From positions 248,001 through 312,000 of the forward strand of contig JADNRV010000050.1 of NCBI GenBank assembly GCA_015499995.1: DNA of 64,000 nucleotides. Direction: 5' to 3'. Below are positions 19,263 to 58,819 of this stretch, one piece after another. Made by a program: the position numbers and the translations under genes. The notes under the pieces are model-generated. The model searched no databases, was not told the origin of the DNA, and saw only the letters and a list, made by a program, of their open reading frames with translations. How positions within the stretch are numbered: position 1 is the first letter of the stretch; each line of letters starts with the position of its first letter. This stretch comes from Flammula alnicola. Its lineage: Eukaryota > Basidiomycota > Agaricomycetes > Agaricales > Strophariaceae.

Positions 19263-19265
19263 GTA

Positions 19266-29685: not shown

Positions 29686-30100
29686 CTGAGAGGTCGTTAA
29701 AAAGGAGAGAAGAAGAGGATGGGTGAGAGGAGTCGGAGGGAGAGGAGCAAAGACTGATTAAGCTCGAGACAAGCCACACAAATTTTTTGGTCGGAGTTTA
29801 TCAGTTGGCCAGATCGGGACTATTACAGTTAAAGCGCATGCTCTGCTCATGTCATCTTGACAAAAACACCCAATTCACCTCCTGCGCTGCCCTGCTTCAT
29901 ACAACTTCTAGGCAATCTCATTTCTCTCTGTCAACCATTTCTTATCGTCGACGTGAGGCATCCGCATCATGACACTCCCTGCCTATAGTTTCTCGGATAT
30001 TTGTTGTTTTGCTGTCTTTTTGTGTGCTTTTCACAATAATGAACCCCTCATTGGGCCATCCATGCCCTTTGCCCAAGAGATACCCTTCGCTTCCAGGGCC
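29686..30100. other. Importin promoter region
   Basis: Upstream flank of the importin gene up to the start of the left 0.64 kb repeat. Short frames only. Confidence 0.5.
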
Positions 30101-30733
30101 TGGGGCCGGACCTCGCATCCTCAGCAACTCTTTGTACATGATCACATGTAATTGGCACACTTATATTTGTCGAGTCCCTCGCTTCAGCATTTCGGTCAGT
30201 AAAGGCTGGGATTCGTGGACAACACGACTTATTCTATTCGCTTATGCGCTTTGATTTTTCTGACAGCACGCGCTCAAGGCCTGCTTGGCTGAACAGCTGC
30301 GTGAATGCTGCGAAAACCGGTGCTGGACACAGGCGTTTTAAACCGAGCTTCCCATTATTTAACTGCTGGCGCTGAGCTCGGGCGCCAAAACTTTCCGGGG
30401 CTGCAGGACTGGCAAACGTGAAGGTCTAGCCACTAGAATTAAACCTAGCCGCGATTCAGCCTGAGGAGAGATTAAATCTCAATACTCAATTTTGGACTCT
30501 TTCTTTCAGGGACGCACTCGTGCGGATACTAGTCGCCACCGCAGCAGCCTTGAGTCTCCCTGCGCTCGGGTCCCACAGTCAACATAGTGTACTGCCCAGT
30601 TGCGAAGCAAGAGCGTGCGTCTAGACACTTCGGGCAATGTTTGATCAATTCCATATGCTTTACATCATGCGCTGACGAAAAGACATGCGCACTTATGGAA
30701 TAGCGTATGCATATCCAACGGCGTCGGGCTGGA
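30101..30733. repeat. Direct repeat of about 0.64 kb, left copy
   Basis: Matches 34507-35151 in the same orientation along its whole length, with scattered substitutions and small indels. Landmarks: GACCTCGCATCCTCAGCA, CTTTGTACATGATCACATGT, GCTGGGATTCGTGGACAACA and AGAGCGTGCGTCTAGACACT. A minus-strand frame ending at 30529 is kept in both copies, with CLDARSCFAT and LTVGP in common. Confidence 0.9.
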
Positions 30734-30992
30734 ATCTCTAAGGCGCTGTTTATGTTCTCTGGCATCTTTCGATGAGCTTCAGATGAGAGCTGAAGTGAAG
30801 AAGCAATCACAAGCAATATGCGTTAAACCGGCTGAAGTTTTCCCTTCAGTCGTTCAGGTGTGTCACAAGTAACGTTGCTCATGGCTCACTTATCTAAACT
30901 TCCTTTGGAGTTTCCGAGGTGCCTCGAACCTGACAGGGATTTATTTAAAAACCTCTTGCCCAAAATTCCTTGGCGTGTCGGCCTAGGACATA
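30734..30992. other. Spacer between left 0.64 kb repeat and MITE
   Basis: No gene or repeat recognised. Confidence 0.4.
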
Positions 30993-31168
30993 CAGTCGAC
31001 CCCCTCATAACCCATACCTCTGATAACCCATAACCCCTCATATCCCATAGGCTTTAGGGACTACCAAACTGAGATTTACACCAAAACTGACCTCTCATAA
31101 CCCATAACCCCCATAACCCATAGCTTGGGCCGTTCACCGAGGGGTATGGGTTAAGAGAGGTTCGACTG
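30993..31168. mobile_element. MITE of pogo/Tc1-mariner type, 176 bp
   Basis: Terminal inverted repeats: the left end reads CAGTCGACCCCCTCATAACC and the right end, read on the other strand, CAGTCGAACCTCTCTTAACC, matching at 17 of 20 positions and continuing through CCATACC. The element is flanked by TA on both sides (30991-30992 and 31169-31170), as expected for the TA target duplication of this superfamily. The inside holds further ATAACCCATA-like words in both halves and no coding frame, so it is non-autonomous. It lies about 140 bp downstream of the carboxypeptidase gene stop. Confidence 0.88.
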
Positions 31169-33781: not shown

Positions 33782-34506
33782 GATGGCGGTGTGAAGAAGG
33801 GAAAATTAGCACCTCCGGGTTTAAATGATGAGATTCCAGCTGTAGATGGTGCACATCTTATCTAGGATGTCCTGATAGCTGGGTGTGAGTAGGATCCCAA
33901 GAGAACGGAGCTCAGCTTCTCTTGGAAAGTAAGGTAGAAGGTATGTAGCTACTAGAAGGGTTGAGTGTAAGGAGCAACCTTACAGCCGTTTTCATAACGA
34001 AAGACGCCTTGGACTTCTGCTTGTTTATAACATGTTTGGTCTTCCCGAGGCTTCTTTGACCTTCCGGCGAAAGGCAACCGGAAGGGCGGCAAGAATTTTG
34101 ACACCTGGTTTTGAGTTTTCCTCAGAGGCTTTGGTCGGCAAGCCCTTCTTTTCTACCAGATCCTCAGATAGTACCGACCATCAGCGCAAACAAGCAGAAT
34201 TTGCAGGGGCCTATCGTATCCTCAGACCTGTGGGAGCTTCGCCATCCAAGTGCGTGACGCAGTTGTACATCACTGTGTCGAATCTCCTGTGCCACCGCAC
34301 GCCGGTTAGGGTTCGCGTTGAGGTTCGCGTTCAAAAGGTCAGTTAGCGTTAGGATTAGGTGCTTATGCTTATCACCCAATTTCAGTACTCTAGTAGTAGA
34401 ATAATCTAATTGGTCAATGAACATGATACCATCTATAGCTAATGCCTTGACCCGAGATCTAGACAATGCTACAAAAGCAATAATATTAAGAGAAAACTTG
34501 AAGAGC
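33782..34506. other. Upstream region of the carboxypeptidase gene
   Basis: Contains the carboxypeptidase promoter. A run of GGTTAGGGTTCGCG-like words lies near 34307-34350. No coding signal. Confidence 0.5.
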
Positions 34507-35151
34507 TGGGCCCGGACCTCGCATCCTCAGCAGCTCTTTGTACATGATCACATGTAATTGGCGTTCTTACTCGCTTTTCCGAGTCCCTCGCTCCAGCATT
34601 TCGATCAGTAAAGGCTGGGATTCGTGGACAACACGACTTATTCTTCGCTTCTATTCGCTTCTGCGCTTCGATTTTTCTGACAACACGCGCTCAAGGCCTG
34701 CTTGGCCGAACAGCTGCGTGAACGCTGCGAACGCCGGTGCTGGACACAGGCGTTTCAAACCGAGCTTCCCATTATTTAACTGTTGATGCTGAGCTCGGGC
34801 GCCAAAACTTTTCCGGGCTGTAGGAAGGCTGGCAAACGTGAAAGTCTAGCCATTAGAATCAAACCAAGTCGGCGATTCAGCCTGAGGAGAGATTAAATCT
34901 CAATACTCAATTCTGAGCTCTTTCTTTCAGGGATGCATTTGTACGGATGCTAGTCGCCACCGCAGCCGCCTTGAGTCTCCCTGTGATCGGGTCCCACAGT
35001 CAATATAGTGTACTGCCTAGTTGCGAAGCAAGAGCGTGCGTCTAGACACTCCGGGCAATGTTTGATCAATTCTATATGTTTTCCATCATGCAACGAAAAG
35101 ACTTGCGCACTTATGGAATAGCGTTTGCATATCTAACGGCGTTGGGCTGGA
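34507..35151. repeat. Direct repeat of about 0.64 kb, right copy
   Basis: Same orientation and extent as 30101-30733. It lacks a codon present in the left copy's minus-strand frame and has a TAG where the left copy has TGG, so that frame is broken upstream here. Neither copy begins TG and ends CA as a pair, and no target duplication is evident. Confidence 0.9.
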
Positions 35152-38882: not shown

Positions 38883-40341
38883 TCAAAGCGAACGTACGGT
38901 GGGGGAGAGATCACCTCCCGTCTCCAAACGGAACCAGAAGGGGATCATCTTCCAAATTTTCTCTCGTTCTCGAGCAGCCCAAGACTCGAGCGATTTTGCA
39001 CAAGCCTTGCACTCAGAGAACTCAGCGCTCTTGAGCTGGCCAAGCTCTTCAGCGACATACAAGGGGTCGTAGCACCCTCGCTCCCTGTCGAATAGGTAAT
39101 GCTGCGTCGCGAGGTCGACGAGCTCAGTAAAATCTTTCCGGCATGCCGCCGCAGAGACACAGACACCATTGGCGGATGTCTTTCGGAAGTGAGAGTGGCC
39201 CATGGCATTCTGCTGCGGGTGGCGGATATATTGTCCGCTGCCCATGCTCTGGATCAGCGCAGTTATGGTATGCTGGCTGGCTTCCTTGCCAAGGAATAGG
39301 CGCTGCATGTCGGATGCCAACAGGCTGGGAGGCGGGGGGGAGCGGTACAGCGGCTCGTCCTCGTTCGGCTCAAATATCTGAGTTGTCGAATACCGTGAAA
39401 GCTCGTAGAATGCAGAGGGGAGGAGGTACGGAGCGTTCACTTCGCGCGCGAGGCTGATCACGCTCTGGAGGACGACAAGGTCAGTTTATCTCCGCATATT
39501 GCAGACAAGATACATACGAAGGGATGTGGGTATCTATGTGTCCTGCCCTCGATCTCATAGCCGCGAGATAGATCCTCTCTCGCGTCCCATGTCTTCAAAT
39601 CGGAAGGCCAGGCAATGCTGAGATGGGCCAGCGCTTTCGCACGCAGCGAGTCGATGAGGTATTTCGTTGAAAGACGGAGAATCCCCGACACAGCCCGGAA
39701 ATCGTCGTCGTCGTTATTGCCAAAATTTCTACAATTCATGATGAGTGTCAACACAGCCGGACGGGGTAAGAGACTTACGGGCCATCGTAAAGGGCGGTCA
39801 GCAGGTTCCCTACATCCTCTGCTGAGTCATATAAATACACAACGGGCACTCTCCGCGACGCAGTGGTCTTTCCCTCGTGCACAAGCATGGTCGATTCGAC
39901 TCGTGATGTCTCGGGGTGGGAGAGCATGACCATGTCGTGAAACACAAGAGAGTGGCGCGCCAGCTGGGACATGTGTACGCAAAACAGAGTATTCTCCGCA
40001 CGACAGATGACACTGCCGTCATCGAACCACAGATCTGCATGCCGTTGCACCTCAACGCCCGTCTCCGCGTCGACGATGGTGGCATGCCCACGCTCGTCCT
40101 TTGTCTGCGGATTGTACGCCAAATCGGTGAATTTCGTCTCTGGCGGGTTCGCAGACAGCAGCGTGAGGGTTTCTTCGGATATCCCATGGCGCACGGAGAT
40201 TCTCGAGCTTATGCTTGGTACAGCGCTTGGGGAAGTCGCTGTCGAAACCAAGCTGGTGGCCGAGTCTGAGTCTGTGCTTTTGATTGAAGGGCCCGGAGAG
40301 GTTCTGGCCGTCCGCGGTGTTGTTGGGGGTTCCATTATCAT
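38883..40341 (-). CDS. BTB/POZ domain protein (basidiomycete family)
   Basis: Three exons joined by two short introns (about 39726-39777 and 39463-39518), giving roughly 450 residues. The N-terminal 60 residues are Ser/Thr/Pro-rich. The BTB fold follows: HADLWFDDGSVICRAENTLF, CVHMSQLARHSLVFHDMV, then VYLYDSAEDVGNLLTALYDG. After it comes a helical region (SGILRLSTKYLIDSLRAKAL) and a C-terminal part with Cys pairs (SECKACAK) and a Trp-rich end. This is an abundant BTB family of Agaricomycetes. BTB domains dimerise and often bring substrates to Cullin-3 ligases, but the role of this family is not established. Its first 22 codons and promoter are duplicated at 56742-56809. Confidence 0.85.
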
Positions 40342-40584
40342 GTCAAGAAAATGCGCACCCGTGGGTATATATGATGAATTCTAATTACCCCCAACGAAAT
40401 TTGACTTGGAATTTGACGACTTGATATTGCAAAAGCTTCGCGAGAAGGGGCGGTTGATCGTCGGGTGGCACTACTTAGGAGGTGATATCCCCGATGTGGA
40501 TATGTTCCATGCTTATCTTATCTCCGGCACAATAGTTTTTAAATAATTGTTTTCTACGCGAAAACCATCACAAGGCTGGAAAGT

Positions 40585-41070
40585 CTACGCTGAAGTACTC
40601 TCCCGCATCTCATCTCCAAGTTTATCCAACATTGTCTTCAACTCCTTGTTGAAATCAAATCTGGAAGTGCGCGATCATCTCAAGATCGGACTGAGGGAAG
40701 CAGAGAAATGTTGAATTCCGGTTGGCCTCTGTGAACGTAGGAGGGCAAACGGATGGAGACTAAAGTACACAATGACCGGCTTATGTATGTAGTCTAGCAA
40801 TGAAAATCACGGATTGAATCCCGACGCACGTTGACTGGTGCATCGCGCATGCTCGCACAACCTCCCAATATTCCAACACTCCTCGGCCTCCGAAATTAAT
40901 TGCTGAACAGTAGGTTCAGGTTTATTTTCAGGTATTGGCTCTTTCCAGCTCAGCTTTTCTACAGCCTCGTGCACGACCTGCTCCCAAGATTTACCCTCCT
41001 TCGCGAGCTCGTCCACCAATTCATCTTTTGTCCTCCTGCATGCACCGACACCGTCATACCCAAAGCTAGT
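40585..41070 (-). pseudogene. 3' fragment of dihydroorotate dehydrogenase gene
   Basis: Reads [20 protein letters not shown] and [13 protein letters not shown], as in the intact DHODH C-terminus at 57118-57300, but is interrupted by a 231 bp insertion and ends abruptly at 41070. The FMN-binding barrel is missing, so it cannot be active. Confidence 0.9.
40647..40877. mobile_element. 231 bp insertion with 6 bp target duplication, family unknown
   Basis: Compared with the right copy of the repeat, extra sequence is present between ACTCCT (40641-40646) and a second ACTCCT (40878-40883), consistent with a 6 bp target duplication. I see no long terminal inverted repeats and no frame. A GGATTGAATCCCG stretch faintly recalls a tRNA B box, too weak to call a SINE. 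Confidence 0.6.
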
Positions 41071-41465
41071 AATTATATAATACCATCAAAGGCGTGAAAC
41101 CTCCCTAATTATATAACTGCCATTCCCAAGCCATTCCTTCGTTGTATGCCAAGAAGTTAGCAGCCCTGTCGCAGCCTGAGGACGGGTGTTTTGCTTCTCC
41201 TAAATTTTGAGCTACTGTATTAGTCGTCAAACTCTCCAAGTTGTTGAATTGTCTCCGCAGTGTCGCAGCCTCACTTCAACAGGTGTCGTGGGCAATCACA
41301 TTCACAGGATGAGTCTAAGCACCCGTCGCCTTATTCCAGCTTCGAAACTATGGCAGGAGGTAGGCATACAAACATTTGAAGCAAGAGGATATGTAATTCT
41401 ACAACAGATATGGGAGCATAATAAAAATAAGTAAAAGACTCGGAGAATCAGAGAGTGACAAGTGC
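41071..41465. other. 3' flank of the chitinase gene
   Basis: First unique sequence after the left repeat. No gene seen. Confidence 0.4.
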
Positions 41466-44400
41466 CTAATGAGTGGGCAAGGTATTCAACCAAGTAATAC
41501 TAGGAATGGCGTTCAATATCGACTGTGTCAGCTGCGTCCGCGATACCTGCAAGTCAGCCTTCGGCGCAGCGTTGTTATCCCATGGGCTATTTGGATCGCC
41601 ATTCTCGTGGTCCGTCCAGTAATCCAGCTCTATGGCAAACGAGACTCGGACGTCCTGGGTGGCCGTATCAGCCTGCCCAGGGTTGAACGTCTGAATGTAG
41701 TTCGGTATTTGAGCTTTGAGGTAAGGCACAACGCCGTTGAGGATGTTGTATACCTAGACCCAACATTAAATTCGCAAGTTCGGCCAGAGATTTGGATCGG
41801 CTTACAAAATTATCATAGATATTCGGAACATTCACGTTGCTCGGATTGGGACCACGGGCGGGACTCAGTTGCTGGTAGTTATTATACCAAGCGATCCAGA
41901 TATTCCGTATGCACGTGTTGTCGCGTTTGAAGAGTTGTTGGACCTGTTAGTTTTGACACTTAATTTTTGGCTCAGCAAATTAGCGCTGAGGAAAGTGCTC
42001 ACATTGAAGTTGTTCAAATACGACGGAATGCCCGCAGCTGCGCGTAATCGTGCAACCTGCTTTGTTGGACACATGTTTGCCCACTTCGTCGGATCTACGA
42101 GCCGGATGGTATTCCCGCCCCCAGGGACAAGTTGCCGTTCTGTCTCGTAAAATGCATAATTCTTGAAGACATTCGCTTGCTGCTCCAGCATCACCATAGC
42201 GGTAGCACCGTTTGAGCCGCCTTCAATTACCAGATGTCAGAAAAGGCACAACAAGAAGTCTCGTGCAAAACCCACCAGGATAGCAATTCTGTACCAGCTC
42301 AAAGACCGAATTTGTACCTGATCTCAGATTCTGGTTTACCCATTGACACCAGGACCTAAATGAAGGGAAAGCTGAGCTGAATCCATGGCGCAGTATGATT
42401 AATATAGAAACTCACGGGCCGTTCTGGATTTGCCAAAGGTCAGTGAATTGCTGCAGATGGTCAATGAACAACGACGCTAATCGAGAGCAGGTCATTAAAC
42501 GCCACAGAACGGGCCAAGAAAAATATAAACCCACCCATGCTAACTTCATAGACATGCTCCCTGGCAAATATGGCACCTCCGGACTCGGCAGAAGTCAGGA
42601 CGGGATTGCCATTAGGGTCCTCTTCTATATTGGGAGGCCATGGGTTGTACGTTCCAAAGGTCGGACTCACTTGATCAGCGGGTTTCACGTCAAAGAATGT
42701 GCCGATATCTGTACTTGAATACCCTGACATGTCGAGGAAGTATGCAGGACATGTGCCCATCGTAGCGGTACCGCCAGCACGTCTGAATAAATGACCGTAG
42801 TCTTCGTCCTCGTGAGCACCAGCAGTTGCATTGTTGTATTCATTGGCAAATTCTTCTCCGTATATCGCTGAAAGATTGGCTGGCATGTCGTCGAACCCTC
42901 TTGCCAAGATATCAGCATATTGACCTGAAGTTATCTATTAGAAATTACGTTTAAAAATTAGGCTCATACCAGAACACTCACCTGTCGCACCATTCACGTC
43001 GATATTATTATCCGAGTAGCACAAGCAATCGGTTGCACCACTCGAGCCCGAGATCTCGTTGTCAACAGTAGGACAGACCAGATATCCAGGCAAGAAGGGT
43101 ATGGCTCGACGGTCCAAGATATCACTCTTGTTCTTGTTGGCGTTATCAGCGGTCCAGGACGTCGTGGGTTGCTGGATCACAATAGCGTCACTCGTACTAC
43201 GTTTTCGAGGTGTTGATGACCTTTTTTCGATCACAGCATACGCAGGCACGTTAAGATCATGGTTGGATGAGACGTTTAATCCAAGTTGACCAGAGCCATG
43301 CGCTTCGTATGCATAGAACGGTTCCCCAATACCGCGCCTACTATTGCCTGATGCGGAGGCTTCAGTAACAGAATTGAAGCATGATCCACCGAAAGGGAAA
43401 TCGGCGGAGAAGAAGTTTTTGCTACGCAAGCGGTGAGCCTATTTGGGCATTGACAACAGAAGCTTTGACACATACACAATTGGATTTGGCCTCCAGAACA
43501 ATACTGACCCGGTCAGACCCGCGTTGAGGTCGACACCATAGTGCTTTTCACATATTAGATTACAATCGACGAAACAACAGTTGCATTGCTCACTGGATTG
43601 ACACAAAATTGGGGCGCCGACTAAGAACAGCGTTAGTCAATAGGCATTATGAGCTGCAATATAAAAGGACTTACAGCCTGATTTACACTGCCAGATATCG
43701 ACACACCAACGTACATGTCTGCTTCAGCAAAAAGCTGGAAGGAAAAGGAGTTAAATACAGCGGAACATTTGGAGACAGAATAGTGTACCTCAGCATCAAT
43801 GAGAGAGCCCCCCAGCACGTTGATTCCGAGTTGTAGGGAAGGTATCTGCAGAACCAAGAGGTTAGATAACGGCCTGATGAAGCGTGAAACCAAACAGACG
43901 ATATGGGCCTGACAGGTAAGAGATGAGTTAGAGAAGGCCTAATCAGAGTGAGATTTAAGAATCACGAACATCCAGGGATCCTTCTAGGTTGACGTTATAG
44001 CCAACAGAGAAATCATATCCGACATTGTTGCTGTTGGAATCGACGTTGTCCGATGGATCTTCCTATAAATTCAGGCATAGTTACATGTTACAGCTTATCA
44101 AGATTATCGGTTTACTGGAACTTGCCTCATCGGGATTGTTGTCAGCCAGTCCAAAAGCATAGCTTATAGGCTGATAAAAGCAGAATTGTAAGTTCATTGT
44201 CGAATGGTCGAGCCATAAGATGCATACCGGGAACGTATAGCCAACAGTTGCAGTGTAGCGTCCAGACAAACTCAGCTGCCCTGTGAGTTCTCCGTAAAGG
44301 TGAAGCGACGGCCCGAGCGTCAATAGACCAGGATAATATAACCCGGGGAATCCAAACGTAGCCAATTCTTGTCTGCCGCTACCATAGTGTGCTTCTGCGA

Positions 44401-47400
44401 GTCCAGTGATCGTGAATGAAGCCTGAGCACCGGCGCCAGCGTCAAAAAAGACATATGCTTGCTGAATTGATGGAGGAACAATGGTCGCCTCGAGATAATA
44501 TCCAAATTGGCTCGTAATCTGAGCAGTGCCGGTGACGCTGATGTCAAGACTAGACGAAAAGTGAGGGCATTGTTGCTCTGCGTGGAAAATAGTGTATGTG
44601 TCCGACCACTGGACTCAGGCGTCAAGGCGGCTTATAACACAGAATGATAGTTCCCACATACGTGATAATTTCGACTGACCGTGTCACCAGAACGGACAGT
44701 CGTGAGTTTCTGCAGCCATGAGTCGAAGGGACCAAACCAGCGCTTCTCGTATTCCAAAGGCTGATGGAAATCACGCCTCCGCTTAGTGTTGGTGGTTCCT
44801 GGGTCTGGCGGACTGTCAATAATCGCATCCCTGTACCAAACACTGATCAGACTATGTCTGAGAGTATTGCGAGGAAAACGCGCACCAATAACCTGGGATA
44901 TCCGTCTGAAAGCGCAGATTAACAGAGCCAAGAGAAACGACAATACTCTACTCACCACGTCCGCTCGCATCCTGCAATCCTCGTCAGAGAAGCCAAAACG
45001 CAGTAGCCGGCAAGCACTCACAAAACAGGACCGTTCTCTTCGGGAACAGCAAGGAAGTTGTAGTCAAAAGATAATGAATATACCTTTTCCGTCGATCGTT
45101 TCCTCGTCTGATGCTCTTGTGGCAGAGCGTTCTGATCAGGATGCTCAGTCAACGAAACAACACGAGCATAAGGTCCCAGGCCACAGGACTTGGGCATTCG
45201 GATTATAGTATGTTCGGTTTGGCCGATGAAAATGTGTCCACAGCCTGAGTCCTCGTCATCCATCCCTTTCGAACAATAAGCGAGGACCTAAAAAAGCAGG
45301 ACTAAGGAAATTGGCAAGGTTGGTCTAAGAATTCGACTGACCGTCTGTGGCTGGTCGCTGGTCGGTGAACAGTTCGTAACCACCCAATCAGATGCTATAT
45401 CCATTGAGCTGACAGAGCCAGGATTTGGGGATGAAATAAAGACCTCTACACAGCTCATCAGAGACATAATAAAGGTTCCAGAGAATTCAAGAACCTCCAA
45501 ATGCAGAGTCATTCTCCTCTCCGTCATCGCCGATGCCGCTTGAGCCAGTGCCCGTTGAAGACGTGTCCGATGTCCCAGTGTTGTCATCGAAGTCGACAGT
45601 GAAAGTGGCCGGTTGATCGACGTTGAATCCGTCCCCGGTGGCAGGGAATACGTCAGTCACAGGAATGGGCAAGAAGGAGGATCCTAGGAATCGTTATGGC
45701 CAGCATCCGTGAATACTAGTAGTCTACTTACCGGCAGGTGGGTCACAGCAATAAAAACGTTTATTATTGCCAACGCACTGAGAACTTGCATCCCCCTGAA
45801 TGTCGCTAACTAAATGACAGACTGATCAAGTCTGCCATTCCAACGGCATAAAGAATGCTCACATATCGCAATTTGACCGGCGCTACACACTGCATTCAAG
45901 CAATTGGGTGGATCTCCAACCCATCGACAGTTGGTGTAACCAGCTGATCAGCTCAATTTTCAGTAACATGGAATATCAAATAGTACTTGAAACCTTACAG
46001 TTGCAGCAGACTGGCTTCGTGTTGGACTGACAAATTTCAGGACAAACTGCCCCCTTTTCAGACTCGCAAGAAATTCCGTTGTCGGCGCTTCCTTGTTTCA
46101 CGTGAGTTTGTACGACATATGGAGAGGCACATGAATCTGCATTGCACGCTGAAGAAATTGGACAAGAGTGAATAATTTGCCACAGTACGAAGAATTGCCA
46201 AGCTACTTACATCCGCCAAAGCATGCTCCAGGTTCTGGATCACCTGAAGAACAACAGAATGCCTTGTATCCCTGAATGCAGGTCGGATGGCCGTCGTCTC
46301 CAGTCTCATCCAGAGCTAGGACAACTTCGCCAACATTGCATTGGGCGTTACAGCTTGTTCCTCCGCCTCCACGCCAAGAGCAATTTTGAGGCTCGTTGCC
46401 CTTTGGACAGCAAAGGCGCGCAGGATTGTTCGTTGGACATGACCCCACCATGTTGGGGACTTGAGTCAGCGTAGTGAGCGAATCATATCCGGACGGACAT
46501 TGTTGGCCACATCCTGATTAAGTTGCATTGAGAAAGGCAAGAAGATTTCAGACAAAGAACGTACCAGTGACTTGGCATTGGTTGCCTGACTCGACTAAGG
46601 AGGGATTATTGATATCGATATCTGGATACAAGCCACTGAGGGCACTGTAACTACTGTCGTCCTGATCAACGGACCATATCATTGTACCTTGATAATTTTA
46701 TTAGTATCCATGAGAGGCATAAGTTCTAAATGATCAACCTCCGAGACAAATGCTATTCGCATAGTTCAACTTCATCTGCAATGTCTGAGCATCGTCGTAC
46801 TAGCACACAGCGTGAGTATCCAATGCACCACAAATACTCAGCTAACGCGTACCGACACCCATTGATTATCGTTCCATGTGATGTACTTGACGGCGGCAGC
46901 TTCATCAAATACTGGGATGAGGTCGCTAGTAGTATCCAAGAGCTTTTCGATTTCTGAGAACATAAGAGTCCCAGAACTCAGCGAGCACTCGCCCGGATCA
47001 CCTCCACCGGAGAAAGGACACCCCGGCGTGTTGCATTGCTAAATCAGTAAAGAGCTTATCAATCACCGAACGCATGATGATCAGATGGAAGACGACTAAC
47101 CCCGTCGACAAGCGTGAAAGAGCGCCCATAGAAGCCGATTCCCATCACCATCTGCGAAGGATTGACGCCGACATTTCGGAATAGTTGCATTGTCTCCATA
47201 ATTTCAGTCAAATTTGTATGGGCTAGGACGAAGGGTCCGATGAACGGATCCGTACTGTCCCAGGTGCCGTGGAGGTCATAGGTCATAATATTGACCTAAA
47301 ATGACCAGTTGAGCAAGAGCTGTGATGGCGGAAGTACGACGGACATACCCAATCAGCCGACTCCAGGAGTGATGGGAGGTCAAAATGTTGGAGATACCAA

Positions 47401-48677
47401 TAACTCGAGGGCGCCGTGAAGGTTAGACCGTATCCGCGAGGGGCAAAAGCTGCTTTGACTCTGGACATGAATATTGGATAGTTTGCCCTGTCAGCAGGTA
47501 CTCCGCCGCGTTCGGGGGCCACAGGGTATTCCCAGTCGATATCAATCCCATCGAAACCATATGCCTGCAAGATCGATAGTGTATTCTCTATAAAAGTATT
47601 GGTGGCGTCGAGACTTCCAACCAGATTACTGAAAATATGTTGCGTCGGCTATCCAGTCTGTTAGAGCATAGCACCAATTAGAAGTCTCCGGACATACTGG
47701 GTCATTGAAGCTCCATCCACCCACTGACAGGAAGACCTTCAGGGCGGGGTTCTTCTGCTTCAACGCAGTAGTTCGCACCCAGAGGAGATTGTCGTTGACA
47801 TTCATCTCCTGCAGAAGGAAGTCCTCGGATATGAGAGCAAATGCGAAATTGACTGACGATAAATGAGTACAAGTGCCATATAGATTGTCAAATCTCTTAC
47901 TGTGCGTCAGGGTCTCTGCTGAAATTAATTCTGGAGGATAGACATCGCAAGCGCGACTGTCACTGGATACTGCCCACGCCTGTTAAGCAAATAAATCAAT
48001 TGATCAAGACGTGGAGATGAGAATGATGATTACCTCGTAGTAACCAATACGTCGATGTAGTGCCGTCGCTTGGTTGTCTCCACAGGACTCCTGTGCAGGA
48101 GGACTGCAGAACGACTGGCATCCAGCACCACAGAACTCTAAAACACACGTCGGTCCATCGGTCAACAAATGATACTTATCACATAGTACTAGACAACACT
48201 TACCTTCAGTAGTACCACAGAAACCGAACTATAGTATATATCACAATGAGCAGAGAGAAGATGGAGATCCAAGAAGATGCAGACCTGACTGCAGCAAACG
48301 TTCAGAGGACAGGTATGGTTCTCAGCAGCAGCGAATGGACCACAGTCTGCCAATGCATTGCAGTTTGAAGTACATGGGCCACCAGAAGACACAGGAGTAC
48401 AGAAATCTGGGCCAAATCTGAGAAGAGTTTCAGATGTGCGATATCTCGACGTTGAACAGATGCGACCCACCCGCAGAAACCAGATACTGAGTTGCAGCAG
48501 GCACCATTGGCACATGGAATAGTCGCGGTACAGCTTCCAATGGGTAAACCTGTAGAGTTGCCTTGGGCGATGACTAGATGAGGTATTCCCAAGACTTCGG
48601 AAGAATGTCAGAAAATGACTTCGGAAAATGTTGAAGAACAGCTCACGGAAGAGAAGTGACACAGCGAGGACCAGCAT
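41466..48677 (-). CDS. Large secreted GH18 chitinase with hevein-type (ChtBD1) modules, subgroup C / killer-toxin-like architecture
   Basis: A single intron-rich gene (some 25 short exons) read from ATG 48675-48677 to the stop at 41466-41468. A hydrophobic start (MLVLAVSLL) is followed by two hevein-like Cys clusters (ACCNSVSGFCG and CPLNVCCSQFGFCG). The GH18 barrel has FLSVGGWSF near 47700-47740 and the catalytic DGIDIDWEYP at about 47529-47552, whose final Glu is the proton donor, then YDLHGTWD, MGIGFYGRSF and MIWSVDQDD. Beyond the barrel lie Cys-rich modules (CCPKGNEPQNC, FCCSSGDPEPGACFGGC) and a C-terminal half of more than 1000 residues rich in beta structure, with no catalytic motif I recognise. 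This resembles ascomycete subgroup C chitinases, related to the alpha/beta subunit of yeast killer toxins. I see no LysM in it; the divergent neighbour is all LysM. Predicted to cleave chitin outside the cell. Confidence 0.88.
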
Positions 48678-49865
48678 TCTGGCACGCTGCTACGAAAGCC
48701 CGACCCAGAGGTTTTGCTTCATCTCGCAGTGAATCTGGGGGCATTTATAATTGATTTGGAATGTCCAGAGAGGCACAGAGGCTGTAGGACACGGTCCGAC
48801 GGAAATGTAAGGTACCATAAGGTGAGGAAGAGAAGAAGCGAGAGAATTCCTCTGTAGCAAGAAACCAACCTCCGTTAGTATCGTTAACGTTATCTTCTTT
48901 TCATGGCGAAGAGGTCGGAATTCAGTTCTCCTCCAGCGGCGAACACAGATGGCGGCCGGCCATGCCAGACTTCGTAAGTACGATGGAAGCAGCGGCCCAT
49001 ATATGGTACTCCAGAGCCATGTGCTTTGTACCTTTGCCCCTAAAGCCGCTCATAGCGCCCGCCACCAGCGATGCCCCGTTCAGTAGTATGTAGAGACAAG
49101 ATATGTTCCTGATTGCGATCCTATGCCCAAATATTTCTCGCGATGTCACAATCTTTTTCAATCTTTTTGAAAGATGAAGGTAGGAAAATTTACTTACCTA
49201 GATGGTGGTCAAATGTTGCGCTGGCAATTGCACATATGACCTTTCTCTACTTTAAACTTGTCGTACGGCCTCAAGCGGCATTAACGGGACCGCCACTGCC
49301 CTATTTCGATTCACACATTTCAGAGATCGAGACTGACTTGATGACGAGAAAGAGCCGTTCTATTGTCATCATACAAAAGACAAAACGGAGAACGAGGATG
49401 GAAAAGTGCAGAGAGGTAGGCAAAGCTGATGTATATAAGTATGGTGAGAAGGATTGATCAGGCCACAGCAAGAACAAAGACAATCTGCTCCGTAGGCGTT
49501 GATAGCATTGTGAGAATTAATTTCCAAAATCGTAAGCTGCCAAGCGATTTACGGCAGCGCGACCAAAGGTCCAGATGGATGTGTTCTGTCCTCTCATTTT
49601 TCTGCCATCTGACCAAGGTAGAATTTCGGGAATCCTGGTTCACGTCAACATTCCTTTGTCATTCCAGCAGAACAAACGTTGCACCTTCATGGGATAAGGT
49701 TTCTTCCGAACACATCTGTCAAGACGAAGCAGAGAGCCTCATGGAGCCTTTTCGAAACTGCTTCCAACCTGAATTCACCGTCCGGCGCCAATGGCTAGAG
49801 ACCGATTCATGCGGCTTCATCTGGAGGCCGAATACAACCTTATAGCTCATGCCTTTTATCTCTAG
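48678..49865. promoter_or_regulatory. Divergent intergenic region between chitinase and LysM genes
   Basis: The chitinase reads left from 48677 and the LysM gene right from about 49866, so this 1.2 kb must contain both promoters and could co-regulate them. Frames inside have no family features. I do not see a clear TATA box or repeated operator. Confidence 0.55.
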
Positions 49866-52800
49866 ATGCCCAACTTCCTCTGCTCAGTGGTCCTAATGGC
49901 AGGACGGATTCGAAAATGCCTGCCTCAACTTTTCGTTCCCTTTCTGCTCTTCTCTGTCGCAGATGGGCTCTCTGATTTCCAGAGAAAGCTCAAAGGACAG
50001 GAGAATGCACAGAACGATGCCTTCCATGCCAGCTTGCTCAAACAACTAGCTGACTCTCGGTCCAATACTACTACACCTAACGACACCCTTACATCGTCAA
50101 ATCTGTCCTTGGACTGGGAAGTGTCCAACTCTTTCGTCACATTCGCGACAAATGCCAGCAACAGTCTGCAGATCTATACGTCGGACTCCCTTCCGACCAA
50201 TCCCGCACCTTCCAGTGCGTGTGCAGCAGCCTTGACAGCAACAATACCTTGTAACTCAACCGTTCCTCTCATGGCGTGAGTAGTTCCTATTTTTTCGTCA
50301 ACCTCTTGCTGATGAATCCTTTTCTCCTAGTCTCAGCCCGTACCTCTTCTCAGACGATCTTCAACTTGTCTGCACCAATGACTGCCTTGTCGGGATCGAG
50401 TCATATCGTGCAGGTGTCGTTTCAGCATGCGGAAATTACATGATTACCGACTCGAGTAACAATACATACGCCCCAACCCTGGCACTCGACTATGTCAGTG
50501 GTCCATACACAGTGCAGTGTCTTAAAGACCCGGATAGCGGGGACTTTTGCGGGCCCATAGTCGAGTCGTACAACACCACGAATGGTCTCTTGTCGCTCCC
50601 GACCAACGAACTATGCACATACTGTACCCTCGAGACGCTAAATGCCACGCTATCTAACCCCACGAGTTATTCAATCGCCTTGGCAGACCTTCTCTCAAGT
50701 GCCATTGCCACGTGTGGCGCGTTTGTACCTTCAACCCCCTCAGCTTACCCCGTATCTGACCAATTTTTTCCTTTAGAAACTTTGACAACTACAACGTCAC
50801 AGCCGCTCCTGGTGACCAAGTGGTCGTGTCCGCTCCCTTCGGGGTGAACGCCACTGCTGCACCTACTGTCGATTGTACGCTCAGTGGGCGAAACATCACG
50901 GCCAGCCAGGCAACGAATTGTGCCGACGTTGCTGCCCAGTACAGCGTGAGCGAGTATGACGTCTTTTCGTCAAACCCATTCCTCAATGCCGACTGCACCA
51001 TCGCTCCGGGCGCTGTGCTGTGCGTTCCTCAACAATGCACCACCTACACCATCGCCGTCAACGACACGTGTCAGTCCGTCGCTCAGCTAGCAGGCAAAGT
51101 CCCCGGCACAAACCTCAATGTCACCGCATCCCAAATCCAATCCTTCAACCCCGATCTTGGGACGTACTGCCAACTGATTTCACTTCGCGTTGGGAAAACC
51201 ATCTGTCTGAGTCCGAATGGAGGATGGCCATCCGTGGGGGCAACTAGCCAAGGGAACCCATCTGCTACGCCTACGACTGTTGCACCTGTTCCAACGCCGA
51301 CTGTCAGCGGCACTACCTCCGCATGTGGACGGTATTACCTCGTCCAGGATGGCGATATCTGCCAAACTGTTTGTCTCACCAATTACATCACCTTCAGTGA
51401 CTTCCTCATCCTTAATCCTGGTAAGTTGCAATGGCCTCTCATTCCTGTTTCTCGCTGCTCACCCCATTACATCCAGAGGTCGATGCCAATTGTACCAACC
51501 TGTGGCTGGACTATTATTACTGTGTAGCTCCATATCCGCCGCTCTCGACTGTTACCCCAGCCCCCCTCCCTACGACGAATTACACCAGTGCGACTGTCAT
51601 CAGCTACCCTCTCCCTACGGCGAATTATACCATTACCTACACTACAAGTCCCATCACGGCTGCTGGGGTTTCCGCTCCAACGAACATCGCTGATGGCACC
51701 CGTCCCGTCGCTTGTGGAGGTTACTACGACATCCAGGTAAATACACTGGTTCTCTATCCTCTTTCGCGCGATACTAATTCACCCGATGGTAGGCTGGTGA
51801 CACCCTAGACACTGTCGCCACATTGGTCGGCGTTAATGAATCTCTGCTTGCCACGTGGAATCTCGAGCTCAGCAGTGGATCCCTGCCAGCTGTAGGCTCC
51901 GCTATTTGCATTCTCTTCCCAGAAGGCAATTATACCTTACCCACCGCGCCACGCCCAACCAACGCATACGCCAACGCTACTACCGCCTGCGCGCAATACT
52001 ACACTGTCCAAAATGGCGATGGATGTGGTTCCATTGAGAGCGAGTTCGGGCTTACGAATTCCCAGTTCGATCAGCTGAACCCAGGCCTAGCAAGTGATTG
52101 TACCAACCTTATTCTTGGTCTTGCTTATTGCGTTCTCCCAACCGTTCCCTTCTCGGCATCAAGTTCTACTGGACCGCCAGACAATGTCGCACCTGGAACG
52201 ATCACGGATGGATGTACAGCTTATTATACCATCATGTCGGGCGATACTTGCAGTGTCATGGAAAACAATTTCAATATTACCTTGACGGATATTACGACAT
52301 GGAATCCCGAGATCAACAGCCAGTGTAGCAACATCCAGCTGGGTCTCGCATACTGCGTTGCCTCTAATTCTTCCACTACAACTGGTCCGCCTAGCAATGT
52401 CGCACCTGGGACGATTACAGATGGTTGCACGGCGTATTACACTATTGTGTCGGGAGATACTTGCAGTGTTATGGAGGACAAGTACAACATCACATTGACC
52501 GATATCACGACTTGGAACCCAGAAATCAATAGCCAATGCACCAACCTCCAACTTGGCTTGGCTTACTGTGTTGTCTCCAGCTTGTCGACCTCAACTGGCC
52601 CGCCTAGTAATGTGGCACCGGGAACAATCACAGATGGCTGTCTAGGATATTACACCGTCATGTCGGGCGATACCTGCTCTGTCATGGAAAGCAAGTTCAA
52701 CATCACGTTGACGGACATTACGACATGGAATCCTGAAATTAACAGTCAGTGTACCAACATCCAGCTAGGCCTAGCATACTGCGTCGCCTTCAACTCATCC

Positions 52801-53178
52801 GGTTCATCTGGCAACGGCCCTCCACCCCCTCCAGCAAACCTAGCCACCGGCTCCCTCAGCAACTGCACAAGCTATTACACTGTCGTCTCGGGCGACAACT
52901 GCCCTGCAATCGAGACCACTTTCAAAATCGCCGCAGCCGATTTCTTCAGGTGGAATCCGGAGGTGTCGATCGACTGCTCGAATATCCTGGTTGGTGAGGC
53001 ATATTGCGTGGGCGGTGGTGGAAATGCATGTAAGAAAATCTATGTGGTGCAACCTGGCGATTTCTGCTCTGCCATTACGCAGAGTCAGGACATCACGCAG
53101 CAACAGTTGGACGCTCTGAATCCGTTCCTGGACGCCAACTGCGATTTGAGCGTAGGCGAGAGTCTATGTGTTGGGTGA
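49866..53178 (+). CDS. Secreted multi-LysM protein (about ten LysM modules)
   Basis: Five exons: 49866-50275, 50331-about 50711, about 50777-51420, 51477-51736 and 51793-53178. Start is 49866, or the second ATG at 49896, which gives a tidier signal peptide (LPQLFVPFLLFSVADG). The first ~270 residues are Cys-poor and unassigned. Then come about ten LysM modules, most in the fungal form C..YYTV.SGDTC, N..LT...WNPEI and C..LQLGLAYCV. Modules 6-8 (about 52190-52790) are near-identical and joined by TGPPSNVAPGTITDG linkers. LysM modules bind N-acetylglucosamine polymers; fungal LysM-only proteins mask chitin or protect the wall. Many N-glycosylation sequons occur. The gene is divergent from a chitinase; in Trichoderma LysM genes are known to sit beside subgroup C chitinases. 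No catalytic domain is seen. Confidence 0.92.
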
Positions 53179-53441
53179 CGAGTAATTTTATATGTTCTTT
53201 ATTACGTTCCAGTACTGTCAATCCTTGTAGAATATATTTATGCGACTACAGTCCGCCGTCTAAGAGCTGGCTAAAAGCCCCTTGTTTTCAAGTTCCTATT
53301 CTGAGCCCTGCTGTCATATTCTCCACGTGTTGGAGGATTCCTCATGGGGACGGCTTTCATCCCTTTTCTTCTTTCCACCACGGCCCTTATTTGAGTTCTC
53401 TATATAATGGCCATCAATAGCATGTCTCTGACCTCGTCATC

Positions 53442-55109
53442 ATGTCTACCGCCTGGTTGACTGGCACCCCGGTGCGTTCTAGAGAGCTCTTGTGGCCCAC
53501 CAACGACGATTTTGTCTCTGCCGGAATCTGGGATCGTGAAGGAACATCTGTGTTGAATGGTCTCATTCTTAACTGGTTCTCCTTCATCAGGAACACGAAA
53601 CGGACAGTCATGTACCTTGCAGACACGGCTTCAGATGGATCTGTAGGGAGTGAAGGGTCGATCACACTAGTTCGAGCTGCAAAAGAGCTAGAGTACGCCG
53701 CTGATCGTGTCGCTTTGTTGGGAACAACCAAGTTTGCGTCAGCCGAGTGGATTGCTAGGTAAGTTCAGTCTGGTCATGGAGGAGCTCTTCCCTCCAGAAA
53801 TCTGAGTCTATTCTTTCTGAATAGCGACAGTACACTCAAATTAAGAATACACCGACTTGACGGGTTTTTAGAACGAGAAGACTCTATCTCCGTCCAGGCT
53901 GCATATGGAGATCTTCGCGTTTTCAATTCGAAGGTCTATCTCTGCACCTCATCTGGTCCTACGAACGCCTCCGACGAAGCTGTGACTCCCCATCAAGTCC
54001 GCCTTGGTAGCGACACAGACAATTCGAACACTACTGCTCTGTTCGCTGATCAGATCTTGGAATGGGATACGACGTCCGGCGCGTTCAGGCGCATTAGAAT
54101 TCCTGATCCCATGCGTGTAAGGGTCTATATTTCTCATATTCCAAGCTTAGTTTTTTATCCTCTTCGACAGCATGCTGCAGAGTACTCTTTCCCATTTGAG
54201 CATCAAGTCGCCCTAGCTGGATTGGTTGACGATCAGAACGGACAAGAGCAGCTCGCGTTGACGAGTTTCAACGTCAACCATCAGCCTGAAAACCAGTCTG
54301 CTGCACGTTCATTCTCTCCAGGCGGCACATCGGACGAGCGCAACACGAAAGGAATGGGTGTGGCAACAGAAGGCAATACAAATTCAAGCGACATTATCCT
54401 GCATTCTTTCGACAGAATTGCGGTGTTCAACCGAGCATTTTTCAACAAAGAAATCGCTGTACGTAGCACCTTCCACGATGTGCCATGATAAGTCCACGCC
54501 GTTTGCTCATCTTTCCTCTTGCAACAGGACAATCCTCGTTCAGGCCGTTTGCACTTCCTCAGGTCCCTCCTCCTCGAAAACGACGTGCGGGTACTCCCAT
54601 TCTCCCTGTCAGGTCCGCTACCTGCCGTCGCCAACAACCGCGTTTTGGCATATACGAAAGTGTTAAGAAAATATCACTTCTACATCCTGGACTTCGACCA
54701 ACAGCGAGTCAACGCCCTTCTCAACAAAACTTCAGAAGAACGGGAAGCTCTACACGCTCAACTCACAGAGGCCGGCACCCGTGTCAAAGTCGTCACACGT
54801 CAGTCCTATGCTCAGGAAGAAGGCGTGGGTGGCGGTACTGTCGATGCAGAGTACCCTGCTCGTCGCGTGCCTCCCGAATGGAAGGACCACCTCCGAGCCC
54901 TGGCTCAGCAGGAGAAGCAGGGCGTGTCGCTCATCTATGATGAAGCTCCTGAGGAGCGTAGGGCAGGCAGATGGGGTTTTGTGCAGTCCGAGCTGCGGCT
55001 TGGAAGGGAAATCTCGCTTGTCGGTGTCAGTAGGATGGGTCTTACAACCGATTGTGTGCTTCTTGCACCCGAGCCAGGCGACAGTGGCATGGTCTGGTAT
55101 TTTGAATAA
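53442..55109 (+). CDS. Uncharacterised protein (about 480 residues)
   Basis: Four exons make one coherent frame: 53442-53759, 53825-54116, 54171-54457 and 54528-55109, with consensus GTAAGT/GTACGT donors. There is no signal peptide and no membrane segment. Segments such as ILEWDTTSGAFRRIRIPDP and VLAYTKVLRKYHFYILDFD have the rhythm of beta-propeller blades, which would fit the F-box/propeller families common in Agaricomycetes, but there is no F-box at the start and I do not assign a family. It lies tail to tail with the next gene, inside the block bounded by BTB/DHODH repeats. Confidence 0.65.
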
Positions 55110-55159
55110 AAGCTGTGTTCAATTTTATTTATTTGACATCAGGTTCCTGCTGCTCGTAG

Positions 55160-56600
55160 TTATACCGGAAAGAGTGAAAAATCTACAACTTTTTGTTTCC
55201 TCTGAGGACTACCATCTGAGAAAAACATCCATCCAGAACTCTCATCGAGTACCATGAAAGGTTCAGCGCCACGCCAGATCTTTGGTGCCATGCTATGTGC
55301 GCATCTGATGAGCGATCGCCATTGCTGACACTCCTTCCATTTGATTAACGTGGCATGAGATCCAACAGCAAAAGGATAAAATCTTCTCGACGTAAGCTGA
55401 ACAACGTCGACCCGCTGTTCGTTCTTCGGGACCTGCTTTTGGTCGTAGACGAAGAGTCCTACCCCGCAAGGGTCTACCTCTGTGGCCGATATCAAATTGA
55501 AGAAGCGGTGTCCACCGCAGAGTTGGGGCGTAGAAAACATGCCGGCTCTCAGATCAAAGTATCTCTCCCACAATGCGGGGAGGGTCAGTCCAGGCCACTG
55601 GGAGGGTTTCAGGGGTCTAGGGAAGTTCCTAACCAAGGGCAGAGAGCTATAGTCGTAAAGGGCTACAACTCTCTCGGAGCTGGCACAGATGATAAACTTC
55701 CCGGAAAGGAGATGCATAGCCTATTCATGCCAAATAATATAAAAAGTGCACGTAACTGAAAGAGCAGAAAATTCATACCGAACCTGAAAAATTCCATCCC
55801 GAGGCAAAGCAACGCCTCGGATAACCAATGGAGTTCTGGGGCTGAGGAATGTTCTTCCAATTGAAGACCGTGACAAAACCATCGTTCTTGCATCCGCGGT
55901 ATCGCTGAACCCATCGGGCAGCAAAAGCAAGCAGAGGCCCAGAGAGGGAGATCGATTCAAACAACGTGATCTCAGGATCGAGCGGGAACGACGCCAGTTT
56001 GGATGCGGATAATCCAGTGGAAGGGCCACCCTCGACTGATCTATCCGGAACGACAGCTATGCGCCAGATTTGCACTTCGGCTTTCCTGCGTGCGGCTCCC
56101 TTAGGGAGATGTCGGAGGGAGATGTCGGGCGTATAAGGGTTTGAAGCACAGAGCGATGTTGAATGAAGAGATGGAAGGCTCTTCAACCACGTCCACTGGC
56201 ATGGCTATAGCGAAAGTGGTGTGATTACAATGGGCCGGGATGAGAGGGACTCGTCTGTGGGGAGCGTCCTCTAGGTCAAAGTAGTCAACCGCCCCGTGAG
56301 ACGTGGCGGTCAACAACCATCGTCCGGCTGGCACCAGTTGCATGCAGGTGACAGGTCGAGTTTTGATGTGGCGCGAAGTTTGAGCCTTGACATTGTCCAG
56401 TTCGTGGTTCTTGCGTGAGGTTATCCTACAGGCCTTACTGACCGTTAAAAAGAGCAAAGTGAGACGCTCCAGGTCCTTGGCTGTGTAGAAGTCGAGTGGT
56501 CAATCTAAGCGTGGCATCCGAAAGATATGATCTCGGTGTCGTAAATAGAGCTGCAGCCATATTGGCCTCAACCTGGATGCCTCGGATAGCCTTCTGCACG
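55160..56600 (-). CDS. Propeller-like uncharacterised protein, possibly F-box type, 5' end damaged
   Basis: The 3' exon (55160-55717) and the middle exons (about 55770-56410) give a continuous protein with WD-like strands: RPVTCMQLVPAGRWLLTATS then GAVDYFDLED, VTVFNWKN, KFIICASSERVVALYDYSSL and GWMFFSDGS. This is the layout of the C-terminal propeller of basidiomycete F-box/WD proteins. Upstream of 56457 the frame shifts: another frame continues with LDVQKAIRGIQVEANMA to about 56600 and then stops. No F-box and no convincing start are visible before the right repeat begins at 56742, so the gene may be truncated at the block boundary. Exon limits at the 5' end are uncertain. Confidence 0.55.
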
Positions 56601-56741
56601 TCTAGAACGGTTAGGGGGTGCGGTATAAGCTGGTGAGCCTGGCGCTATTGGACAGTTTGGACTAGGGCGGTTTCTGGGTAGAAAGCGCTATCCCTTTCGC
56701 CTTTATATAGGCTCATCGGGTCCATCAATAACCAAGCTGGC

Positions 56742-56809
56742 GTGCTTTTGATTGAAGGGCCCGGAGAGGTTCTGGCCGTCCGCGGTGTTGTTGGGGGTTC
56801 CATTATCAT
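56742..56809 (-). pseudogene. 5' fragment of the BTB gene
   Basis: Reads MIMEPPTTPRTARTSPGPSI and KST from 56809, identical to the BTB gene start at 40341, then passes into unrelated sequence. It includes the promoter side but no BTB domain. Confidence 0.9.
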
Positions 56810-57366
56810 GTCAAGAAAATGCGCATCCGTGGGTATATATGATGAAATTCTAATTACCCCCAACGAAATTTGACTGGAATTTGACGACTTGATATTGCAA
56901 AAGCTTCGCGAGAAGGTAGTCTCGTACCAAGATCGTGTTGTGAGAGGGGATTTGATTGAGCCTACGCGAGAAGGGACGGTCGATCGTCGGGTAGGCACTA
57001 CTTTAACTTAGGAAGTGATATCCCCGATGTGGATATGTTCCATGCTCATCTTATCTCCGGCACAATAGTTTTTAAATAATTGTTTTCTACGCGAAAACCA
57101 TCACAAGGCTGGAAAGTCTACGCTGAAGTACTCTCCCGCATCTCATCTCCAAGTTTATCCAACATCGTCTTCAACTCCTCAGCCTCCGAAATTAATTGCT
57201 GAACAGTAGGTTCAGGTTTCTTTTCAGGTATTGGCTCTTTCCAGCTCAGCTGTTCTACAGCCTCGTGCACGACCTGCTCCCAAGATTTACCCTCCTTCGC
57301 GAGCTCGTCCACCAATTCATCCTTTATCCTCCTGCATGCACCGACACCGTCATACCCAAAGCTAGT
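56742..57366. repeat. Direct repeat bounding the chitinase block, right copy
   Basis: Copy of 40274-41070 without the 231 bp insertion. Here the DHODH side continues into the intact gene and the BTB side stops after about 68 bp of coding sequence. Confidence 0.92.
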
Positions 57367-58819
57367 GTATACCTGCACCATGGAGGCACCAGATTTTGCA
57401 TAGTCGAGAGCATCTTTGCCGCTCGCGATCCCTCCACACCCGATTAATGGAATAGAGGAAGGTAGATGTGCGCGCAGTGTTTGAAGAGCCTTGAGTGAGA
57501 AAGGTTTGATAGGTGGTCCTGAAAGTCCACCAGCCTCAGATTTGTTGGCTGCAGAAGAATCGTTAGTAATGTCATTTTGTCTTCAAAACCAGACGACTGG
57601 CCATTGACAAGAGTCTTCGGTCGTTGTATCGTCGTGTTGCTGACAATTACGCCATCGATATTGCTTTTTCTTATTACGTCTGCCATCTCAATAATCTGGG
57701 ACTTTTCGAGGTCGGGCGCAATCTTGAGAACGACTTTCGGCTTCCTTGATGTCAAAGGAGACGGTGTTAGCTCATCTCGAGCCTTTGTGACGCCATCTAA
57801 CAGCCGTTCTAGGACATCTTTGTTTTGTAAACCTCTGCATAACTATAAGCAAGGGGTTAGAATCAAACTTATAATATGACAGACTCACCGCAGACCAGGC
57901 GTATTAGGGCTGGAAACGTTTACTACCAACACATCCGAATAGGGTCCAAATGTCCGAACACCAGCAACAAAGTCGTCTATGGAATCGGCAGGCGACTCCT
58001 TGTTTTTACCGAGATTAACAGCCAGCATTGAATCTTCTCTAAGTGCCGCTCGATCAGGTCCACTAAAGAACGTCGGGATTCGTGCGCGCACGCGAGCCAG
58101 AACGGAAGAGTGGCCTTGAGAGGGAAATCCATATCGGTTGATGACCGCGCCATCTTCGTCTAATCGAAACATACGCGGGCGAGGATTTCCGGGCTGCAAA
58201 TATAAATAGGTTGAAAAGTTTGCTGAATACGAACATTGAGACGCACCTGGGGTTTTGGAGTAACACTACCAATCTCCACCCAGCCGAAACCGAGATCAAA
58301 TAGCCCTAGCATACCATCTCAGCATACGAATGTAAGCAATGGCTAGCAATTCTACCATCTATAGCTTCCCCGTCTTTGTCGAAACCCGCGGCCAGGCCGA
58401 TTGGATTCGACACGGCTTCACCCCAAAGCTATGACATATATAAGATAATAAAGTCGAGTGACATGTCTTTGGAAACTCACTTGACATTTCAACCGTTCAT
58501 CATCCCGCACTGGATCCTTCGGTCCAAGACCAGACTTCAGAGTCTTCACCGCCAGCTTATGGCCCGTCTCCGGATCCAAAATATTCCGAATAATTGGCGT
58601 CAAGACATATCTATGCAGGGCAGAGCGAGAGTCGAGATAATAAACTGTGAAAAGCCCAGCAGAGACCACGAAGGCGGTAGTGTACAATGCCGTTCGGATT
58701 GGGTTGCGTTCGACAGGAGCGGATTTGGTGAAAAGGTGGCGGGTTGAATGTACGTGTTTTGGGGCTCTAAATGACGTCCTGGCTAGGGTATGAGGAATGC
58801 CATGATTTAGGATTGGCAT
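57118..58819 (-). CDS. Dihydroorotate dehydrogenase (quinone), mitochondrial class 2
   Basis: Six or so exons from ATG 58819 to TAG 57118-57120. The N-terminus is a basic mitochondrial presequence ([18 protein letters not shown]) followed by one membrane helix ([19 protein letters not shown]), the class 2 layout. The FMN barrel shows [88 protein letters not shown] and [12 protein letters not shown]. The catalytic Ser of class 2 enzymes is in the VNVSSPNT segment. It oxidises dihydroorotate to orotate at the inner membrane, passing electrons to ubiquinone, the fourth step of pyrimidine synthesis. A helical C-terminal extension of about 70 residues (from [13 protein letters not shown]) follows the barrel. 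The 3' end is duplicated, broken, at 40585-41070. Confidence 0.93.

Follow-up and report, generated by a model that had tools for sequence, protein, structure and literature searches.

A chitinase and LysM gene block between duplicated copies of a BTB/DHODH junction in Flammula alnicola

The locus and its duplicated junction

The window analyzed here is a 64,000-nucleotide stretch of the Flammula alnicola genome (bases 248001–312000 of contig C446; the assembly comprises 74.4 Mb in 861 contigs). Within it, a 15.7 kb block (41071..56741) that carries a divergent couple of chitinase and multi-LysM genes is enclosed by two direct copies of the junction between a BTB-like gene and the pyrimidine-synthesis gene DHODH. 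The intact BTB-like gene lies on the minus strand at 38883..40335 and is modeled with three exons and 449 amino acids (aa); its label derives from a sub-threshold Pfam match (PF00651, E = 0.2). The intact DHODH gene, also on the minus strand, is found at 57118..58819 and is collinear with the 483-aa record P0106. Left of the block, BTB is whole and DHODH is a broken piece, while right of the block BTB is a broken piece and DHODH is whole. This pattern had been described in a first-pass annotation of the same DNA, and both tblastn and the gene models agree with it. The base composition of the block (GC 0.492) presents no contrast to that of its flanks (0.495 and 0.488).

By self-comparison, the left junction copy spans 40274..41070 (797 bp, including a long terminal repeat (LTR) that arrived later) and the right copy spans 56742..57366 (625 bp, with a broken BTB 5′ end and the DHODH 3′ end). 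The copies align as three collinear pieces with E-values of about 1e-83 to 2e-90, as expected from the earlier proposal of a ~0.6 kb junction duplication around the block. The first piece pairs 40274–40448 with 56742–56916 (98.3% identity), the second 40436–40646 with 56962–57179 (94.0%), and the third 40878–41070 with 57174–57366 (97.4%). From tblastn, each copy contains about 20 codons of BTB, a spacer of about 250 bp and roughly the final 82 codons of DHODH. The broken DHODH 3′ end on the left (40585..41070, minus strand) corresponds to approximately residues 402–483 of the 483 in P0106 and is split by the LTR.

The LTR is solitary, 232 bp in length (40647..40878) with TG...CA ends, and is flanked by a 5-bp target duplication, CTCCT, at 40642–40646 and 40879–40883. 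When the LTR and one CTCCT are subtracted, the left copy measures 560 bp. The right copy contains a 58-bp repeat insert at 56917..56974, which is flanked by the 10-bp direct repeat CGCGAGAAGG and whose position may be displaced by that length. The insert is also present in whole or in part at seven other places in the genome. Since the LTR and the 58-bp insert are each found in one copy only, both arrived after the duplication. With these two elements set aside, 16 of 559 aligned bases (2.9%) differ between the copies, a few of them at one spot of ambiguous alignment. This divergence falls within that of the alleles here and points only to a duplication that is not very recent. A genome search with the left copy produced 39 matches, 34 of which were confined to the LTR to within about 10 bp; once the two later insertions are excluded, the repeat matched only this locus and an allelic contig. 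The LTR belongs to a short element: at several genomic places, pairs of the same LTR are about 1.25–1.35 kb apart (for example, C112:456921–458407 and C664:2399–3886), a spacing too short for a coding retrotransposon.

Two independent gene edges, the 5′ end of BTB and the 3′ end of DHODH, occur together in each copy, which implies an ancestor in which BTB and DHODH adjoined each other before the block arrived. The order of events and the duplication of the target flank that were first read from this DNA are both supported, the latter by the presence of the same junction on both sides of the block.

Edges of the block and the allelic contig

At the left edge of the block, the repeat ends at ...CAAAGCTAGT, and at the right edge the repeat proper begins at GTGCTTTTGATTG. 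An 11-bp sequence within BTB, AACCAAGCTGG (40246..40256, plus strand), recurs at 56730–56740 and is likely the outer edge of the duplication. Following AACCAAGCTGG, the right copy lacks 16 bp and has gained one C relative to the left. Thus, the duplication probably extends 28 bp further left than 40274. An untidy joint of this kind would be more readily explained by end joining or template slippage than by the action of a transposase or by a clean crossover. Between the two 200-bp ends of the block, the longest exact inverted repeat was 7 bp, compared to a mean of 7.3 and a maximum of 11 in 200 shuffles.

The left part of the locus is represented a second time by C555, an allelic contig of window positions 24830–47893 that is 97.2% identical over 24830–30993. 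This contig includes the left junction and stops 6.8 kb into the block; no empty allele is present there. No second contig was found for the right half of the block. Until about 36.4 kb, C555 diverges from the window by 1–7% per 500 bp; beyond this point there is a single substitution (47573) and three 1-base gaps near the left junction. The abrupt drop in divergence at about 36.4 kb covers BTB and the left junction, and may reflect loss of heterozygosity or read sharing at the contig end. The insertion is probably in both nuclei, with the reservation that the identical C555 tail could also be a product of read sharing.

Genes of the block

Four genes had been assigned to the block on first reading, a family 18 glycoside hydrolase (GH18) chitinase, a multi-LysM protein and two others, and all four were recovered; neither of the others has a Pfam match and the fourth is a weak model. 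The chitinase gene (41466..48677, minus strand) combines a GH18 domain, detected above the Pfam cut-off at the locus, with a long C-terminal extension. It is full-length and collinear with the 1731-aa Phlegmacium relative P0226 over residues 11–1731; the Flammula chitinase record for this contig is a shorter model of 1362 aa. A CBM18 domain was below the cut-off at the locus (one exon, E = 0.021) and is assigned to the Flammula chitinase by homology to P0226, in which GH18 and CBM18 are both above the cut-off. No LysM (CBM50) module was detected in the chitinase relatives P0226 and P0228 at E = 0.05 or better, and as a result the chitinase is referred to only as subgroup C-like. The C-terminal extension (P0238, 24-row alignment) was predicted with a mean pLDDT of 60, and the predicted structure had no match in the PDB at E = 0.001 or better.

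The gene models place a common intergenic region (48678..49865) between the chitinase gene and the divergently transcribed multi-LysM gene (49866..53178, plus strand). The latter encodes 1026 aa in five exons in which LysM domains were found, and is 81.5% identical to a Psilocybe cubensis relative over 997 aligned residues. Judging from their families, the couple is most likely an attack-and-shield pair, with a secreted chitinase directed against other fungi or arthropods and a chitin-coating LysM protein.

The third gene model (53442..55109, plus strand) encodes 510 aa of unassigned family. The fourth (minus strand; 55129–56725, or 55129..56803 at its widest extent) was obtained from relaxed settings only. 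No paralog of either gene was found in the Flammula genome. The start codon and first codons of the broken BTB share a reading frame with the fourth gene's first exon (56654–56803). The fourth gene may therefore be driven by a captured BTB promoter as a candidate fusion, a frame match by itself being a one-in-three coincidence.

The chitinase and LysM couple in other genomes

Linkage in related species was assessed by a proxy, the same species together with a matching contig size, and the counts for the couple are a lower bound. A chitinase relative was present on the contig of the LysM relative in at least 32 of 52 LysM places and at least 28 of 37 species. The two genes have consecutive locus tags in Coniferiporia weirii, Clathrus columnatus, Ganoderma sinense and Mycena latifolia. 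Flammula itself contains two further couples, on C212 and C668, both divergent, whose chitinase records (P0323 and P0270) have 39% and 37% identity to the query. The couple is conserved among mushrooms and is therefore older than the insertion described here. Of 26 comparable places, covering 18 species, 25 had DHODH on a different contig from the couple. This separation speaks, indirectly, against an ancestral position of the couple beside DHODH.

Other repeats in the window

Two further pairs of single-copy direct repeats were observed in the window. The first, 12556–14439 and 17571–19861, is about 1.9–2.3 kb in length with pieces that are 83–91% identical. These repeats trail the genes at 10640–12795 and 15981–17389, which share a 34%-identical kinase-like stretch, and are probably a tandem gene duplication and not another insertion scar. 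The second pair, 30100–30733 and 34506–35151, consists of 0.64 kb repeats (89% identity) around a gene at 31309–33781 that presumably resembles an M20-type peptidase. Both copies are also present in the allelic contig, and no gene model of the window matches inside them.

Mechanism of insertion

Long duplications of a flank arise with insertions and rearrangements through staggered breaks or template switching. Break repair or a template switch that inserted a relocated, possibly horizontally acquired, gene couple is considered a fairly probable account of the locus. While the duplication and the order of events are read from the sequence, we infer the repair mechanism. Among the mechanisms raised in the first-pass annotation, a staggered-break or replication-based event provides the best fit, given the untidy right junction and the lack of transposon ends.

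In this account, BTB and DHODH began as minus-strand neighbors about 250 bp apart. A 15.7 kb segment, made up of a pre-existing divergent chitinase and LysM couple plus two genes, would have been joined into a break at this position. The junction would have been copied either by repair of widely staggered ends or by a replication template switch in which synthesis restarted about 0.6 kb upstream of the point where it had left off. The copied stretch covers the DHODH 3′ end together with the BTB 5′ end, so neither neighbor was disrupted, and selection would favor keeping the duplication because DHODH and BTB remain complete. A solo LTR later entered the left copy and a short repeat the right copy. 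The genes of the block have introns on both strands, indicating that it moved as DNA. Like known staggered-break or template-switch insertions, the locus has hundreds of bases of target flank on both sides and no transposon ends.

Several points weigh against this account. No empty site was seen in a relative, the relatives having been compared by proteins and contig linkage, and the missing donor locus deprives the left junction of a microhomology score. The contig ends 21.4 kb to the right of the right copy, which leaves room for a lost or distant local source. With respect to linkage, different contigs need not be different chromosomes and some are only 3–17 kb long; in the remaining one of the 26 places, a 33%-identical Mycena sanguinolenta paralog is on the same contig as DHODH.

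A local tandem duplication is an unlikely explanation. In this scenario, the duplicated unit would have started at the beginning of BTB and run as far as the end of a nearby block; the first unit would then have lost DHODH and the spacer, and the old block would also have disappeared. Tandem duplication does seem to occur in the window, as seen for the kinase-like genes with the repeats at 12556–14439 and 17571–19861; however, three events are needed at the present locus. The flanks examined contain neither a protein match to five block gene models nor a DNA match. Besides the allelic contig, a genome search returned no further DNA copy of the block, and in relatives the couple is off the DHODH contig at all but one of the places compared.

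Single-crossover integration of a circle, or of other DNA that already carried the junction beside the block, would yield exactly what is seen, namely direct copies of a shared stretch on both sides. Such an event is distinctly unlikely, since it requires that the junction and the block were joined beforehand and the untidy right junction is unlike a clean homologous crossover.

The first-pass annotation also entertained an undescribed carrier, which would have to be mobile and generate target duplications of 0.6 kb; this reading is not supported and is very unlikely. A carrier would be in keeping with a discrete block bounded by long direct repeats, and with a couple that is patchily spread and whose tree departs in part from species relations. 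However, the inverted matches at the block ends are no longer than in shuffled sequence. No transposase or recombinase family was identified by Pfam among the block proteins and exons that were scanned, a set that did not include every small open reading frame. Neither of the two paralogous couples, on C212 and C668, has flanking direct repeats in the 20 kb examined for each. A search for tandem repeats and tRNA genes returned one 26-bp array and no tRNA.

Established classes of mobile element were also considered. DNA transposons and Starship-like carriers are expected to leave a short target-site duplication. They were rejected because the duplication here is 560–625 bp, the block ends have no inverted repeats beyond the shuffled expectation, and no transposase or tyrosine recombinase was matched by Pfam among the scanned exons and models. 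LINE-type retroposition can leave long target duplications, but its cargo is intronless and on one strand, and it is ruled out by the intron-containing genes on both strands of the block. An LTR retrotransposon was rejected as the cause of the repeats since these are not multicopy outside the 232-bp LTR and the 58-bp insert.

False duplication during assembly is extremely unlikely: the genome was assembled with separate allelic contigs (C555 and C322), but the copies differ by 16 substitutions, the LTR and the 58-bp insert, and are therefore no assembly double, and the left junction is present again on C555.

Origin of the block

In the GH18 tree, the closest relatives of the chitinase are from Psilocybe cubensis, Phlegmacium glaucopus and Amanita phalloides. 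The closest relatives of the LysM protein are from Psilocybe cubensis and Phlegmacium glaucopus. A recent transfer from ascomycetes is not supported, as the best relatives of both proteins are basidiomycetes. For 14 species (91 pairs), identities of GH18 and DHODH were compared; the chitinase value minus the DHODH value had a median of −10.2 points, lowered in part by Mycena paralogs. Nine pairs were above zero, led by Phlegmacium–Amanita (+16.2) and Flammula–Amanita (+10.6); two pairs within Mycena/Favolaschia (+4.9 and +4.1) and then Flammula–Phlegmacium (+3.3) came next. The chitinases of Amanita phalloides (P0227) and Phlegmacium glaucopus (P0226) are 81% identical compared to 65% for DHODH, an excess that reflects either horizontal transfer or contamination of the Amanita assembly. 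Agrocybe pediades and Flammula are 78% identical in DHODH and only 56% identical in chitinase; the Agrocybe couple is thus another lineage. A clade of five chitinase rows, which we take to be an Agaricineae grouping, was rejected (p-AU 2.4e-58), a result that old paralogy could also yield. In the GH18 tree, Amanita is sister to the three other members of the close group and not nested within them (87/86).

From these comparisons, horizontal movement somewhere in this group is likely. A recent horizontal gain by Flammula has two observations against it. The Flammula LysM and GH18 copies cluster with those of Psilocybe cubensis. For DHODH, the partner of Flammula is Psilocybe cf. subviscida (97/98), P. 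cubensis DHODH being absent from the rows listed for that tree. Flammula's own copy of the couple also fits vertical descent. The source of the block may have been elsewhere in the genome of the same species or in another mushroom, and horizontal acquisition is plausible.

A broader reading is that the couple is a compact, horizontally traveling attack-and-shield module of mushroom-forming fungi that enters genomes by break repair without an enzyme of its own. The Flammula locus would then be an entry scar in which an incoming gene has also taken over the promoter and start codon of BTB. This reading is tentative and fairly unlikely, as it is weakened by the grouping of Flammula with a Psilocybe for the block proteins as well as for DHODH.

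Significance

The physical entry of gene groups into mushroom genomes is mostly unseen since scars decay. Beside DHODH, a scar is still readable. Its anatomy suggests a reason for its survival, namely that the duplicated stretch keeps both neighbors whole. A search of the literature identified no report of this locus or of the horizontal transfer of a chitinase and LysM couple among mushrooms.

The association of the two genes has a counterpart in Trichoderma, where, according to the part of the study that deals with LysM genes, most secreted multi-LysM genes without a hydrolase domain adjoin chitinases (PMC3218866). In both systems, a GH18 chitinase is near a secreted multi-LysM gene of this type. 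In contrast to Trichoderma, the present case concerns mushroom-forming basidiomycetes, the relative P0226 contains no LysM module, and the couple was inserted with a long flank duplication. Several chitinase transfers have been described in fungi, one of them into Panaeolus (Agaricales), and some Agaricomycetes are found in the C-I chitinase group among mostly Ascomycota (PMC8042737). Those cases differ in that they are single chitinases from other donors, and the sections of the report that describe them mention neither a LysM neighbor nor an insertion scar.

Within the Agaricales, horizontal transfer of a gene cluster is described for the psilocybin cluster (PMC6121855), and the account of the amanitin genes gives distances between distant families, including Amanita, that are shorter than those of a housekeeping gene (PMC6408872). 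Like these, the couple is a patchy gene group, and the amanitin study, as far as its comparison of distances is concerned, used the same short-distance approach. Unlike the pathways for a metabolite or a peptide toxin in those reports, the couple consists of two chitin-active genes. It differs further in that an insertion scar is present here, the donor is a candidate only, and transfer into Flammula itself is only a possibility. If the couple is horizontally mobile, a pair for chitin warfare would join the psilocybin and amanitin genes as cargo shared within the Agaricales.

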